A stretch of DNA of 45,664 nt from Candidatus Gastranaerophilales bacterium (GTDB lineage: Bacteria > Cyanobacteriota > Vampirovibrionia > Gastranaerophilales > Gastranaerophilaceae): assembly GCA_944323615.1 (NCBI GenBank), contig CALUTG010000008.1:1-45664 (forward strand), written 5' to 3'. The position numbers and the translations under genes were made by a program. Position 1 is the stretch's first letter. Each line of letters begins with the position of its first letter. This document shows, piece after piece, positions 15,135 through 44,740 of this stretch. The notes beneath the pieces are model-generated. The model made no database searches. It was not told the origin of the DNA and saw only the letters and a program-made list of their open reading frames with translations.

Positions 15135-15217
15135 GGGTAGGTGGCCGAGTGGCTAAAGGCGACAGACTGTAAATCTGTTCACGCGAGTGTACGGTGGTTC
15201 GAATCCACCCCTGCCCA
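15135..15217 (+). tRNA. tRNA-Tyr (anticodon GUA)
   Basis: An 83-nt class II tRNA with acceptor GGGTAGG/CCTGCCC (one G-T pair), anticodon stem ACAGA/TCTGT with loop CTGTAAA giving anticodon GTA, a long variable arm, and T-arm GGTGGTTCGAATCCACC. Discriminator A at 15217. Its last 16 nt (15202-15217) recur exactly at 15408-15423. Confidence 0.95.
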
Positions 15218-15290
15218 GTTCTTTAAGACTCCGAAAGGAGTCTTTTTTGTTTGCCAAAGGGGTAGGATGAGAACCGCCCCGGTGGTTCGG
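15209..15290 (+). repeat. 82-bp direct repeat, left copy (tRNA-Tyr tail, terminator, acceptor-like strand)
   Basis: These 82 nt match 16545-16626 at 77 positions. The unit contains, in order, the end of tRNA-Tyr, the GACTCC hairpin terminator, GGGTAGG (identical to the tRNA 5' acceptor strand), and AACC...GGTT arms ending in GGTTCGG. The two copies bracket about 1.25 kb with one gene, the layout of an integrated islet. Confidence 0.85.
15225..15248 (+). terminator. Rho-independent terminator after tRNA-Tyr
   Basis: Stem AAGACTCC/GGAGTCTT with a GAAA loop followed by T's, 7 nt past the tRNA. A near-identical copy lies at 16561-16584. Confidence 0.9.
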
Positions 15291-15423
15291 AGGATTTCCG
15301 GACGGACGACGGGGCTCTGCTCCTAGTCCGGATAGCGAGAATATTGAGCAAGCTTGAACCGAAGGTTCAATTGCGAAACTATTCGAGCGTGGAGGAAATC
15401 CAAGACAAATCCACCCCTGCCCA
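15260..15423 (+). ncRNA. tRNA-Tyr-mimic cassette with structured insert in the T-loop
   Basis: The segment opens with GGGTAGG (15260-15266), the tRNA-Tyr 5' acceptor strand, and ends with AATCCACCCCTGCCCA (15408-15423), an exact copy of the last 16 nt of that tRNA. The T-stem halves GGTGG (15281-15285) and CCACC (15411-15415) survive, but the T-loop is split by about 120 nt and the D and anticodon arms are replaced by a short AACC/GGTT hairpin. The insert folds into nested helices: GGATTTCC/GGAAATCC, GAATA/TATTC and TTGAACC-GAA-GGTTCAA. A terminator hairpin follows at 15427. The related cassette by tRNA-Leu (44128-44312) keeps these helices with compensating changes. Whether it is transcribed, or is the footprint of an integrating element, cannot be told from sequence. 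Confidence 0.6.
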
Positions 15424-15426
15424 CCA

Positions 15427-15467
15427 TAAAAAAGAGACTGAACATTTGTTCTAGTCTATTTTTTTAT
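15427..15467 (+). terminator. Rho-independent terminator after the tRNA-Tyr-mimic cassette
   Basis: GACT and GAACA pair with TGTTC and AGTC (one bulge), flanked by AAAAAA and TTTTTTT. The position, just past a tRNA tail, mirrors that of the terminator after tRNA-Tyr. The gap from here to 15631 holds no gene I can see. Confidence 0.75.
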
Positions 15468-15631
15468 ATTCCACTTATTTAAGATTATTTTTATAATTAG
15501 CAATCTGAAAGTACAGAGACCAGAGTCGTTAAAAGGTTGTGTACGTAGTGAATATTGTCTTGTGTGTATGTGTTGGCTATACAATAGATATTTAGTGGTG
15601 AAATTTGTTAGGTACTATCTAATTTTACTTC

Positions 15632-16390
15632 TCAACATTTCCCTCGAATTGTTTTGATTAATTTAGCTATCTTGTTTTTTAGAATGTCTATTTTTATTCC
15701 AAAGTGGTAATTTTCTGTATCATGTTTATATTCTACACCTAACTTTTTAGAATATTTTTTTGATTCATTATAAGCTCGTACTTCATTATCTAGCCTGTAA
15801 CGATAATATTGAAATAAATTGATCTTATCTTCTGCAGAATAGTTTATAGTAAAGATTTTTTCCATTGAATTGATTTTAGCTAAAATATCTTTTTTGTTTT
15901 TTGAAGTTATACCATCATGATGATGATACGCATTAAAAAATAAATTATAGTTAGTGTCTTTTACCATTTTCATTCGACATAATTGTTTCAATGAAAATCT
16001 ATCACTAAACATATGGAAATTTTCATGCATACAAATTGGTATGTTTTTTCTTGAAATAATCTTTTGTTTAGACTTTTTATCAAATGTGTCTATAGGAACT
16101 TGTAGTTCATATGCATTGTTTTCATATATCACACACGCAGAATAATCTTTATATTCAGCTACTGGACGTATTTTTAACTTCAGTCCTAATGGTTTAAAAT
16201 ATGAATTTAAGATTCTCTTATATGTTTTAAAATCAATACCATTGTCATTAATATATGGTTTTATTTTTTCAAAGAAATCAGCGTTGCATTGTTCTGCTAA
16301 TAGCATCCTTTTTGCGTATGAACCTTTTGGAACAAGCTGATGGTTGATTCTTCTATTGGTTTCTAGCAATGGTGATAATAATGCATTCAT
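15632..16390 (-). CDS. Putative HExxH zinc metallopeptidase, islet cargo
   Basis: This 252-residue protein has MHENFH (122-126), the HExxH zinc motif, and a plausible third ligand in NEVRAYNES (Glu about 203), the spacing seen in several zincin families. No signal peptide or membrane segment is seen. It is the only gene between the 82-bp direct repeats beside tRNA-Tyr, so it looks like cargo. Base composition is more AT-rich than that of neighbouring metabolic genes. The protein at 42696-43928, also in a tRNA-bounded islet, carries the same HExxH plus downstream Glu arrangement but shows no obvious overall similarity. Function inferred from motif only. Confidence 0.6.
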   Translation of the reverse strand: MNALLSPLLETNRRINHQLVPKGSYAKRMLLAEQCNADFFEKIKPYINDNGIDFKTYKRILNSYFKPLGLKLKIRPVAEYKDYSACVIYENNAYELQVPIDTFDKKSKQKIISRKNIPICMHENFHMFSDRFSLKQLCRMKMVKDTNYNLFFNAYHHHDGITSKNKKDILAKINSMEKIFTINYSAEDKINLFQYYRYRLDNEVRAYNESKKYSKKLGVEYKHDTENYHFGIKIDILKNKIAKLIKTIRGKC

Positions 16391-16421
16391 ACTGATACAA
16401 ACCTCGTAAAAATAAAATGTG

Positions 16422-16545
16422 CTAGTGATGTAACATTTCTTTCGATTTCATCCTGTCCAATTTTTCCAACCAATTTTTTATCTCAGCAAGGTACGCTGAC
16501 ATTGCTGAGATTTCATAGACATTATTAGTTAGGATTTTGTCCAGC
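16422..16545 (-). pseudogene. Possible gene fragment at the islet's right end
   Basis: An open frame reading ISAMSAYLAEIKNWLEKLD and on to a stop runs out of the 82-bp repeat. The helical, coding-like composition suggests the C-terminal remnant of a disrupted gene, whose N-terminal part is now repeat sequence. The same DNA forms an 8-bp hairpin CTCAGCAA/TTGCTGAG (16481-16508). Weak call. Confidence 0.25.
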
Positions 16546-16626
16546 CCTGCCCAGTTCTTTAAGACTCCGCAAGGAGTCTTTTTTGTTTGTCTAAGGGGTA
16601 GGATGAGAACCACCCCGATGGTTCGG
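16545..16626 (+). repeat. 82-bp direct repeat, right copy
   Basis: Five mismatches against 15209-15290. It includes the tRNA-Tyr 3' end CCCTGCCCA, the terminator hairpin with a GCAA loop (16561-16584), and the GGGTAGGATGAGAACC block. In the AACC/GGTT hairpin the A/G differences keep pairing. It ends 7 nt before the stop of the next minus-strand gene. Confidence 0.85.
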
Positions 16627-41401: not shown

Positions 41402-41531
41402 TTGGAAACAATTGTACCTGACAAAAACACCTGTTCAACAGCAGACATGAGTGTTTACGCAGAAATATTACAATATGAGGCTTGAGCTGGGAATAGAATA
41501 TACAGAAATTCTAATTTCATTATTATCCTAA
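41402..41531 (+). pseudogene. Degenerate gene relic, copy 2
   Basis: A frame reading TADMSVYAEIL, then after a shift YNMRLELGIEYTEILISLLS and a stop. It aligns by eye with copies 1 and 3. It lies directly after the degenerate tRNA-tail tag at 41381 and runs into the end of higA. Confidence 0.35.
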
Positions 41532-41822
41532 TGCTTTGATTGGTTTAATCTTTTTTATGTCATCAGCAATATTGCGCCTTGCTATTCTGAGTTCATAATC
41601 TTCCTGATAACGAAGGAAATAACCCTGAGAAAGACCGAAATATGTAGTTAAACGCAAGTCTGTATCTGCTGTAATTCTTCTTTGACCTCTGATAATCTGA
41701 TGAATTCTGTTTGGCGGTACAAAGATTGCATTGGCTAAAGCGTTTTGTGTAAGGTTAAACGGCTCAATGAATTCTTCCTTGAGCATTTCACCTACTGTTG
41801 TTAATTCAATATATTCGGTCAT
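41523..41822 (-). CDS. higA: HigA-family antitoxin
   Basis: This 99-residue protein has an XRE/HigA helix-turn-helix: GEMLKEEFIEPFNLTQNALANAI followed by PPNRIHQIIRGQRRITADTDLRLTTYFGLS, the classic HigA pattern. It binds HigB and represses the operon. GGAG lies 8 nt before ATG. It has its own promoter in the 101-bp gap behind higB, so antitoxin can be made without toxin. Confidence 0.93.
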   Translation of the reverse strand: MTEYIELTTVGEMLKEEFIEPFNLTQNALANAIFVPPNRIHQIIRGQRRITADTDLRLTTYFGLSQGYFLRYQEDYELRIARRNIADDIKKIKPIKALG

Positions 41823-41856
41823 TAAAATATCTCCATATAGATTACCATCTATTTAT

Positions 41857-41885
41857 ATTATATAGTACGTATCACGTAATTTCAA
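41857..41885 (-). promoter_or_regulatory. Internal promoter and dyad for higA
   Basis: Minus strand: TTGAAA (41885-41880), 17 bp, TATAAT (41862-41857). The spacer contains the dyad TACGT-GAT-ACGTA (41866-41878), a likely HigA operator. Confidence 0.8.
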
Positions 41886-41923
41886 CCCTATAGGAACAGT
41901 ATATTAAGATAAATAACTAAGAC

Positions 41924-42205
41924 CTAGTGATAATCGACTATTTCAACATCAAAAGAATGATTGTCCAACCACCTGAAACATATTCTATACTGGTCATTAA
42001 TACGTATAGAATATTGTCCTTGTCTATCACCTGTTAAAGATTCAAGATGGTTGCTCGGCGGAATCTTTAAATCATCAAGAACAGAAGCAGCATGGAGCAT
42101 TCTTAGTTTCTGTAATGCTCGTTTTTGAATATCATGAGGGAGTTTTTTAGAGAACTGCTCATTCCATATCTTCTCTGTTTCTTTGCATTTGAAAGATTTA
42201 ATCAT
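41924..42205 (-). CDS. higB: HigB-family toxin (RelE superfamily mRNA interferase)
   Basis: This 93-residue protein matches HigB/RelE: ETEKIWNEQFSKKLP near the start, PPSNHLESLTGDRQGQYSIRINDQYRICFRW in the core and VEIVDYH at the end. It would cleave mRNA on the ribosome. Toxin-before-antitoxin order fits higBA. There is no Shine-Dalgarno; an extended -10 (TGTTAAAAT) ends 7 nt before ATG, suggesting a leaderless and perhaps poorly translated message. Confidence 0.93.
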   Translation of the reverse strand: MIKSFKCKETEKIWNEQFSKKLPHDIQKRALQKLRMLHAASVLDDLKIPPSNHLESLTGDRQGQYSIRINDQYRICFRWLDNHSFDVEIVDYH

Positions 42206-44124: not shown

Positions 44125-44127
44125 TGG

Positions 44128-44312
44128 TGTCGATGGCGGGACTTGTCTTGGATTTGCTCCCCGCTCGGAAAGTTTCGCTTTTTGAACCTGCGGTTCAACC
44201 TCGCTCAATTTCCTCGCTATCCGGACTAACTCCATTCTGTCGTGTTGTCCGTCCGCAAATCCGCTGAACCCTTAAAATGCTTCGCATTGGGGTTCTGCGT
44301 CATCTTATCGAC
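44128..44312 (-). ncRNA. tRNA-Leu-mimic cassette, distal, with structured T-loop insert
   Basis: Minus strand: it opens with GTCGATA (44312-44306), one base off the tRNA-Leu acceptor strand GTCGATG, and ends with an exact 18-nt copy of the tRNA 3' end (44145-44128). GAACC...GGGTTC forms a hairpin that brings in the T-arm 5' half. The insert repeats that of the tRNA-Tyr cassette: GGATTTGC/GCAAATCC, GGAAA/TTTCC, TTGAACC-GCA-GGTTCAA and the runs CGGACGGAC, AGTCCGGATAGCGAG and CCAAGACAA. Two helices differ from the Tyr copy by paired changes that keep base pairing. A terminator hairpin follows. Confidence 0.6.
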
Positions 44313-44346
44313 AATAAAAAAGAGCCCCCTTGGACTCTTTTTTATT
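44313..44346 (-). terminator. Terminator hairpin after the proximal tRNA-Leu cassette
   Basis: AATAAAAAAGAG paired with CTCTTTTTTATT, 10-nt loop, following a tRNA-Leu tail copy on the minus strand. Confidence 0.8.
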
Positions 44347-44500
44347 GTCGATGGCGGGACTTGTCTTGGTCGCTCGCGATTAACGGCAATTCCGTGTTTT
44401 GTTTTCGTGATTTCATCACTCCAAACAAAAGCACTCCAGCCTCAGCTCGCTCCCGCTGAACCCGCTAAAACAGATTTAAGCCCTCACCAATCAAGCATAT
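44346..44500 (-). repeat. tRNA-Leu-tail cassette, proximal, different insert
   Basis: It ends (minus strand) with CCAAGACAAG and the exact 18-nt tRNA-Leu tail (44363-44346). It also contains GCGGGTTCA followed by GCGGG, the T-arm 5' half. Between them lies a different hairpin, TTTTGTTT/AAACAAAA enclosing GTGAT-GAA-ATCAC. The acceptor 5' strand is not clear. It appears to be a sister cassette with another insert. Confidence 0.6.
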
Positions 44501-44501
44501 T

Positions 44502-44533
44502 AAAAAAAGGATAACTAAAGTTATCCTTTTTTT
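44502..44533 (-). terminator. Rho-independent terminator of tRNA-Leu
   Basis: AAAAAAAGGATAACT paired with AGTTATCCTTTTTTT, starting 2 nt past the tRNA 3' end on the minus strand. Confidence 0.9.
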
Positions 44534-44535
44534 AA

Positions 44536-44617
44536 TGTCGATGGCGGGACTTGAACCCGCAAGGATCTCTCCACACGCCCCTCAAACGTGCGCGTATACC
44601 GATTCCGCCACATCGAC
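44536..44617 (-). tRNA. tRNA-Leu (anticodon GAG)
   Basis: An 82-nt class II tRNA: acceptor GTCGATG/CATCGAC, anticodon stem CACGT/GCGTG with loop TTGAGGG giving anticodon GAG (codon CUC), variable arm, T-arm GCGGGTTCAAGTCCCGC. Discriminator A; CCA not encoded. Its 3' 18 nt recur exactly at 44346-44363 and 44128-44145, and its 5' region recurs at 44727-44740. Confidence 0.95.
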
Positions 44618-44740
44618 ATAATTAATTTTCACTTCTGCCGTTTGGCGTTAGACTCAACTGGCGGAAAGGAGCTTCGCTCCCCTCCTTCTGAAACCTGACA
44701 TTTAGTCAGCTTTCAGTGGAGTCCTTGCCACATCGACATA
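44618..44740 (-). repeat. Partial duplication of the tRNA-Leu 5' end with a structured spacer
   Basis: The 14 nt TATGTCGATGTGGC at the tRNA start (44620-44607) recur exactly at 44740-44727. The ~106 nt between can fold into CTGAAA/TTTCAG, GGAGC-GAA-GCTCC and an outer GACTC/GAGTC helix. It looks like another element that copied tRNA sequence, this time the 5' end. The rest of 44741-44919 shows no gene. Confidence 0.65.

Follow-up and report, generated by a model that had tools for sequence, protein, structure and literature searches.

The window, a stretch of 45,664 nucleotides from a Candidatus Gastranaerophilales bacterium (genome G000, 1.93 Mb), carries short structured cassettes beside its tRNA genes: two are found behind tRNA-Leu(GAG), one in front of it and one behind tRNA-Tyr. 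The features are the following.

44535..44618, minus strand: tRNA-Leu(GAG), host gene (ARAGORN; RF00005, 52.4 bits)
44502..44533, minus strand: unit 1, terminator-like hairpin, AAAAAAAGGATAAC-TTTA-GTTATCCTTTTTTT (sequence, fold)
44457..44465, minus strand: unit 1, copy of the T5' strand and start of the T-loop, GCGGGTTCA (sequence; T5' statistics over 90 loci)
44362..44456, minus strand: unit 1, structured core of type A, GCGGGAGCGAGC...GCGAGCGACCAAGACA (CM R1, 95 bits; covariation)
44346..44361, minus strand: unit 1, copy of the 3' end of tRNA-Leu, displaced, AGTCCCGCCATCGACA (exact match)
44313..44345, minus strand: unit 2, terminator-like hairpin, part of the unit (sequence, fold)
44266..44295, minus strand: unit 2, P2 hairpin GAACCCC-AATGCGAAGCATT-TTAAGGGTTC on the T5' strand (sequence, loop statistics, PMC4686876)
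44279-44285, minus strand: unit 2, GCGAAGC minihairpin within P2
44144..44264, minus strand: unit 2, structured core of type B, CGGACGGAC ... AGTCCGGATAGCGAG ... CCAAGACA (covariation, 18 cores)
44128..44143, minus strand: unit 2, original 3' end of tRNA-Leu, displaced, with an encoded CCA after it at 44125-44127 (sequence)
44619..44737, minus strand: element on the 5' side, with a copy of the tRNA 5' end (GTCGATGTGGC, 44727-44737), a type C core and a leader box
15135..15217, plus strand: tRNA-Tyr(GUA), host gene of the second array (ARAGORN)
15271..15288, plus strand: Tyr unit, P2 hairpin GAACCGCCCCGGTGGTTC on the T5' strand of tRNA-Tyr (sequence, fold)
15290..15407, plus strand: Tyr unit, structured core of type B (79% identity over 129 nt to the Leu unit)
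15408..15423, plus strand: displaced tRNA-Tyr 3' end, AATCCACCCCTGCCCA, followed by CCA at 15424-15426 (exact match)
15424..16553, plus strand: gene-bearing cassette with a third Tyr tail, partial, at its end (CCCTGCCCA) (sequence)

The present 3' end of tRNA-Leu(GAG) is a regenerated copy, without encoded CCA. In the gene-bearing cassette an ORF on the minus strand (15632-16390) encodes a 252-aa protein with an HExxH-like motif (MHENFH), for which no match was found in Pfam or PHROG.

Anatomy of the units and regeneration of the tRNA

The sequence-only reading had delimited a minus-strand cassette at 44312-44128, starting with GTCGATA and closing with the tail of tRNA-Leu. As a description of the letters this stands, since the segment starts GTCGATA and ends CGACA, and its last 18 nt (CAAGTCCCGCCATCGACA) are the 3' tail of tRNA-Leu(GAG). 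GTCGATA, which resembles a partial reverse complement of the tail, is not the start of the functional unit; the latter runs from T-loop to T-loop, about 44361-44144 for unit 2, and the terminator-like hairpin and the new 3' tail are therefore part of it. The initial observation is thus confirmed as real, and it extends further than first described.

Units measure about 170-220 bp, with a structured core of about 90-130 nt, and are composed, in this order, of the regenerated tRNA 3' end, a terminator-like hairpin, P2, the core P3 (GCG...CAAGACA) and a copy of T3' and acceptor. P2 is a hairpin whose 3' strand copies the T5' strand of the tRNA, up to TT or TTCGA; the core follows TTCGA at most loci; in the genes for Gly, Asp and, in part, Ser it follows TT. 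Over 90 loci the copies fit their own tRNA better than other tRNAs: T5' copies extend over 6.3 nt vs 4.5 nt, copies of T3' and acceptor over 9.86 nt vs 3.83 nt and inverted T5' copies, rc(T5'), over 3.7 nt vs 2.99 nt, each excess being larger than the highest value in 100 shuffles. A copy of the entire 3' half of the tRNA in inverted form was also considered, and its acceptor part dropped, as rc(T3'+acceptor) is not enriched over the same 90 loci (inverted acceptor arm, 4.24 vs 4.1 nt, not significant); only rc(T5') is retained.

Joining the upstream T-loop to the sequence past the core gives a tRNA that spans the junction in 83 of 129 elements, a few of them doubtful. The host gene is split in its T-loop and its 3' end is regenerated by the unit. 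Orientation is nearly uniform, 90 of the 93 genomic cores with a tRNA in reach sitting behind it, in one direction. Encoded CCA is a weak proof of direction: the copy has it and the gene lacks it at 10 loci, and the reverse holds at 5.

More than one core can be found in the same place. Two tandem cores, B then A, lie inside a single T-loop copy at three loci (L176, L198, L261), and core A is located inside core C at two others (L194, L196). A reduced unit is present at tRNA-Tyr of G002 (L400), where the core is just GCGCGAGCGAGCAAGACA between P2 and the tail copy and CCA is encoded after both tails.

Fold of the cores

The sequence-only reading had also reported long runs shared between the Leu and Tyr cassettes, with compensating changes in two helices, which it took as signs of selection on folded RNA or single-stranded DNA. 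All four runs are present in the Tyr cassette, the two sequences being 79% identical over about 130 nt (BLAST, E 4e-24), and core B of unit 2 has 79-86% identity to the Tyr and Arg copies. The exchange of C-G for G-C is real: among 18 B-type cores, columns 18/137 hold G-C in 11, C-G in 6 and T-A in 1. The second helix, changing from GAATA/TATTC to GGAAA/TTTCC, likewise varies in a compensatory manner across these 18 cores.

Covariation is found in two core types, as expected for selection on a folded molecule. For core B (18 sequences), aligned without structure and scored on a structure drawn from a single member, 93.6% of cells are paired vs 84.0% in shuffles, with 49 two-sided cells vs 14; in this comparison with shuffled sequences, which had been proposed as the check on the helices, neither value was reached by any of 500 shuffles. 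In core A (114 distinct sequences) 96.3% of cells are paired vs 75.0% in shuffles, two-sided changes amount to 625 vs 188 and the covariation score is 0.557 vs 0.162, values that lean towards the fold inasmuch as the alignment was fitted to a model of that same structure; all slid controls collapse. The controls for both types can be passed in part through relatedness alone, and the size of the effect, together with the agreement of the two types, would hardly be obtained from relatedness alone.

The loops and the pairs bear on the nature of the folded molecule. Among distinct hairpins, triloops are found in 51 of 77 P3 and 28 of 62 P2, and in 2 of 29 terminators at these loci (Fisher p 3e-7 and 1e-4, values that are optimistic since the hairpins are related by descent); GNA triloops number 42 in P3 and P2 hairpins and 0 in these terminators. 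GNA and GNNA loops, e.g. d(GCGAAGC), give extraordinarily stable DNA minihairpins (PMC4686876). G-T pairs make up 1.7% of core pairs, a figure that omits one fixed G-T pair and one misaligned pair, vs 6.4% in the tRNA stems of the same genomes. Tandem G-A mismatches recur between short G-C helices, e.g. GCgaGCgaCC. Loop types and scarcity of G-T pairs favour, and do not prove, selection of the core as single-stranded DNA more than as RNA. In a search of Rfam 15 for structured RNA families, only tRNAs match above the gathering score.

Distribution, mobility and target choice

Three types of core are found repeatedly behind the tRNAs. The targets of core A include Lys, Thr, Ala, Ser, Gly and Leu (unit 1), and those of core B are Tyr, Arg-UCU and Leu (unit 2). 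Core C is the usual type upstream, where it lies in a copy of the tRNA 5' end, and downstream it is inverted (window 44619-44737, minus strand; L041, L043, L401); a simple pattern search gave type C pointing toward the tRNA in 41 of 45 cases. A tmRNA-like 3' end (L116) and matching tails in G011 and G021 carry core A (L116, L160, L163).

The window's genome has 39 distinct tRNA genes; about a third of them are followed by cassettes that close with a copy of the gene's own 3' tail, and about a quarter are preceded by elements that open with a copy of the gene's own 5' end. Relatives of one core type, 129 in all, were gathered from 31 genomes, and model R1 has matches in 47 of 57 relatives; copies per genome are 23 in G000, 30 in G005, 8 in G015 and 9 in G026. 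In sequence records the core of the unit is found almost exclusively in Candidatus Gastranaerophilales, and a class-wide draw at E 1e-6 gave 38 further positive genomes, each from the window's family, and 0 from other families.

The cores are mobile. At tRNA-Leu(GAG)/dut of about 20 relatives the 3' side can be empty or filled with core A, with core B or with several consecutive units; the 5' side is likewise variable, and the orthologous loci of the window's 5'-side element (44619..44737) differ. At the tRNA-Tyr locus, G015 is empty with encoded CCA, G011 has an inverted type C and others have reduced or truncated units. A clean empty site for the window's own Leu array, which had been asked for to fix the boundaries, was not found: the Leu locus of G004, whose dUTPase is 99% identical, lacks the 3' element, but the sequence beyond differs. 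Unit 1 recurs at tRNA-Leu of G003, where the two agree over about 170 nt, including P2 and terminator; the acceptor of G003 differs from that of the window, and the tail copy follows the local acceptor. Transfer reaches beyond the family, as the tRNA-Asp element is nearly identical in G000, G011 and G039/G044, the last two from another family. Thus, the proposal of a mobile core using tRNA sequence as target is upheld by one core at many tRNAs with flanks matching the local tRNA, by different fillings at orthologous loci, by near-identical cores across families and by related cores in phages.

Diverged copies of core A (48-49 bits) are indeed found at gene junctions of a contractile-tail phage on four viral contigs (L362, L363, L365, L376), where the TGA of the core serves as stop codon to the gene before it. 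At a third junction L365 has a core, truncated by the end of the contig (21.7 bits), and L362, 99.4% identical, has none. A core with P2 and a tail bearing CCA is also present on another phage contig, which carries capsid genes (L385). BLAST of one unit against phage records and of one core against plasmids gave no match. A microvirus (ssDNA phage) origin, considered on the basis of the 4-kb contigs, was dismissed once these contigs proved to encode the tape measure and baseplate of a tailed phage.

On a tree of 103 cores, built from a short alignment with many weak forks and with some doubtful target labels taken from tail matching (e.g. tmRNA copies labelled Leu), so that the counts are approximate, target changes have a minimum of 60 vs 84.6 in shuffles (sd 2.0), changes of host genome a minimum of 81 vs 82.4 (sd 2.2), and target switches number at least 35. 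Cores track the tRNA target and not the host genome, with occasional switches, which indicates that most copies spread by inheritance and by transfer at the same tRNA. Phage integrase genes are located directly downstream at tRNA-Leu(UAA) of G000 (L035) and at the tRNA-Leu(GAG) unit of G011 (L091).

Nature of the elements and competing explanations

No description of such an element family was found in the libraries and literature searched. Tycheposons and other tRNA-borne cassettes of marine bacteria are located at tRNA genes and are associated with tyrosine recombinases; these are kb-sized and gene-bearing, whereas most units here are gene-free. Integron cassettes form tandem arrays, as do these units, and their attC recombination site is read as folded single-stranded DNA; the insertion here is instead into tRNA genes, and the 3' strand of the core holds GTTNAAC, for which no partner R box was seen by eye (attC R'/R'' pair). 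REP/REPIN sequences with RAYT and the ends of IS200/IS605 are short single-stranded DNA hairpins with non-autonomous copies at many places; unlike in these systems, no Y1 transposase gene (Y1_Tnp, PF01797) was found in the four copy-rich genomes G000, G005, G015 and G026, a search limited by incomplete MAGs, and a RAYT/IS200 origin was discarded on this ground. Two other candidates were rejected. Fold-back reverse transcription from the terminator hairpins does not agree with genomes that have no reverse transcriptase (PF00078 was not found in 44 of 57, G000 included) nor with 5'-side elements without terminator; a group I intron in a tRNA needs insertion in the anticodon loop and a ribozyme core, while the site here is the T-loop and no Rfam intron match is present.

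Mitochondrial double hairpin elements (PMC2800124) and the palindromic repeats of Volvox (PMC2670323) are small, gene-free repeated hairpins in intergenic regions and RNA genes, with tandem insertions; compared with them the cores here are larger, with internal G-A loops, and rebuilding of a tRNA is absent from those accounts. The architecture of the units is the same as in the tDNA islands (tyrosine integrase islands) of the Islander account (PMC4383910), which split a target gene, tRNA or tmRNA as here, that is regenerated by the incoming sequence, the displaced 3' fragment marking the far end. The units differ from these islands by their size of about 190 bp, by being gene-free, by lacking an integrase of their own, by their covarying structured core and by a junction in the T-loop of most tRNAs, with arms fitted to each of them.

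The explanation that we prefer, at a probability of about one half, is that the units are non-autonomous, gene-free miniature integrative elements of tRNA and tmRNA genes, moved in trans by a putative recombinase. A unit would enter the T-loop at TT^CGA or TTCGA^, within the motif GTTCRANNC, the most conserved of all tRNAs, and would supply a new T3'/acceptor end together with a terminator-like hairpin, which keep the tRNA usable; the original 3' end would come to lie beyond the core, further downstream. Selection to keep the tRNA working would then bind each lineage to one tRNA, and cores would reach new tRNAs occasionally, through exchange or fresh insertion. The core would fold single-stranded, more probably as DNA than as RNA, and the folded form may, like attC in integrons, be the substrate of the putative recombinase or integrase, an enzyme that could be given in trans by islands or phages at the same tRNA genes, with the T-loop motif as shared target. 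The 170-220 bp units contain no gene and no tyrosine integrase of their own, integrases being found only in neighbouring sequence. Insertion site, rebuilding of the gene, fold, mobility and transfer are demonstrated here, whereas the single-stranded DNA state, the enzyme and the way in which the arms come to fit the local tRNA are inferences. Matching of the arms to the local tRNA is the less easily explained part, since an ordinary integrase has one att sequence and arms that match many tRNAs are not accounted for by recombination alone; selection for a working tRNA accounts for lineages that keep one tRNA and not for switching.

Also weighing against the preferred explanation are the absence of Y1 transposase and reverse transcriptase families from the window's genome and, in G005, a tRNA-Val(UAC) gene that is interrupted and not regenerated. 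Phage gene ends, tandem cores and core A within core C suggest that the core is also able to move alone. A bolder formulation, possible and tentative, is a new class of selfish mobile element with, as its transposable unit, a folded single strand of DNA of about 90-130 nt, with GNA minihairpins and tandem G-A mismatches, which would insert in loops of tRNA genes on either side and at phage gene ends, build a portion of the target sequence into its stems and move by a so far undescribed mechanism. Alternatively, what moves could be just the core (GCG...CAAGACA, about 90 nt), as a selfish palindromic hairpin comparable to the mitochondrial double-hairpin elements or REP/REPIN, inserting as single-stranded DNA into hairpin loops and gene ends, for which displaced tRNA 3' fragments of real islands are only the favourite landing place. 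The same tandem and nested cores, the phage junction that is filled in one contig and empty in its near-identical counterpart, and the lack of a target-site duplication around the core itself speak for it; the single orientation of 90 of 93 cores behind the tRNA and the joint movement of P2 and terminator with the core (unit 1 in G000 and G003) make it rather unlikely.

That single orientation, the position in leaders or behind terminator-like hairpins and the strong covariation would suit a structured RNA of pre-tRNA leaders and trailers, serving e.g. in tRNA processing or stability and hitch-hiking with tRNA genes. Such a role appears improbable in view of the GNA triloops, the scarce G-T pairs, the absence of an Rfam match, the patchy presence among orthologous loci and the occurrence at phage gene ends. 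Finally, the arrays might be scars of larger islands or prophages, integrated in tandem and then deprived of their cargo, with att remnants left behind and the core as attachment site of the islands. This origin would agree with integrase genes found at these tRNAs, with cassettes in the arrays that carry genes (window 15424-16553; L124) and with the phage contig L385; it is nonetheless very improbable given the uniform unit size, a fold kept by selection and tens of units per genome, intact in another family.

If the preferred explanation is true, these elements live inside essential tRNA genes with almost no sequence, exploit one motif common to all tRNAs and rebuild what they break; they would help to account for the differing encoded CCA, terminators and flanks among tRNA genes of one genus. 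Confirmation of the single-stranded DNA state would add a rare case of natural selection on such structures beyond integrons, REPs and phage origins, and a possible path to a new recombinase. The evolution of target choice can be tested directly on the hundreds of copies present at orthologous loci, and caution is required in that tRNA annotation in these genomes lies within mobile arrays.

In at least one genome an element of this kind, a folded single-stranded DNA in the above view of the core, may interrupt the only tRNA-Val(UAC) gene. In G005 (L126, contig G005:C14, about 1255-1475 of the locus) the T-loop of this gene is interrupted by about 145 nt with core A and an inverted T5' copy, no regenerated 3' end is present upstream and no second tRNA-Val(UAC) gene was found in the genome, which is 98% complete. 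If this gene is the only one, removal at the DNA or RNA level would be needed; possible explanations are a second copy that was missed, a fault of the assembly, excision from the DNA and splicing.

Elsewhere in the window, at 41523-42205 on the minus strand, a HigB-like toxin (Pfam, E 2e-18) is followed by a helix-turn-helix protein, the pair being likely a HigBA toxin-antitoxin system.
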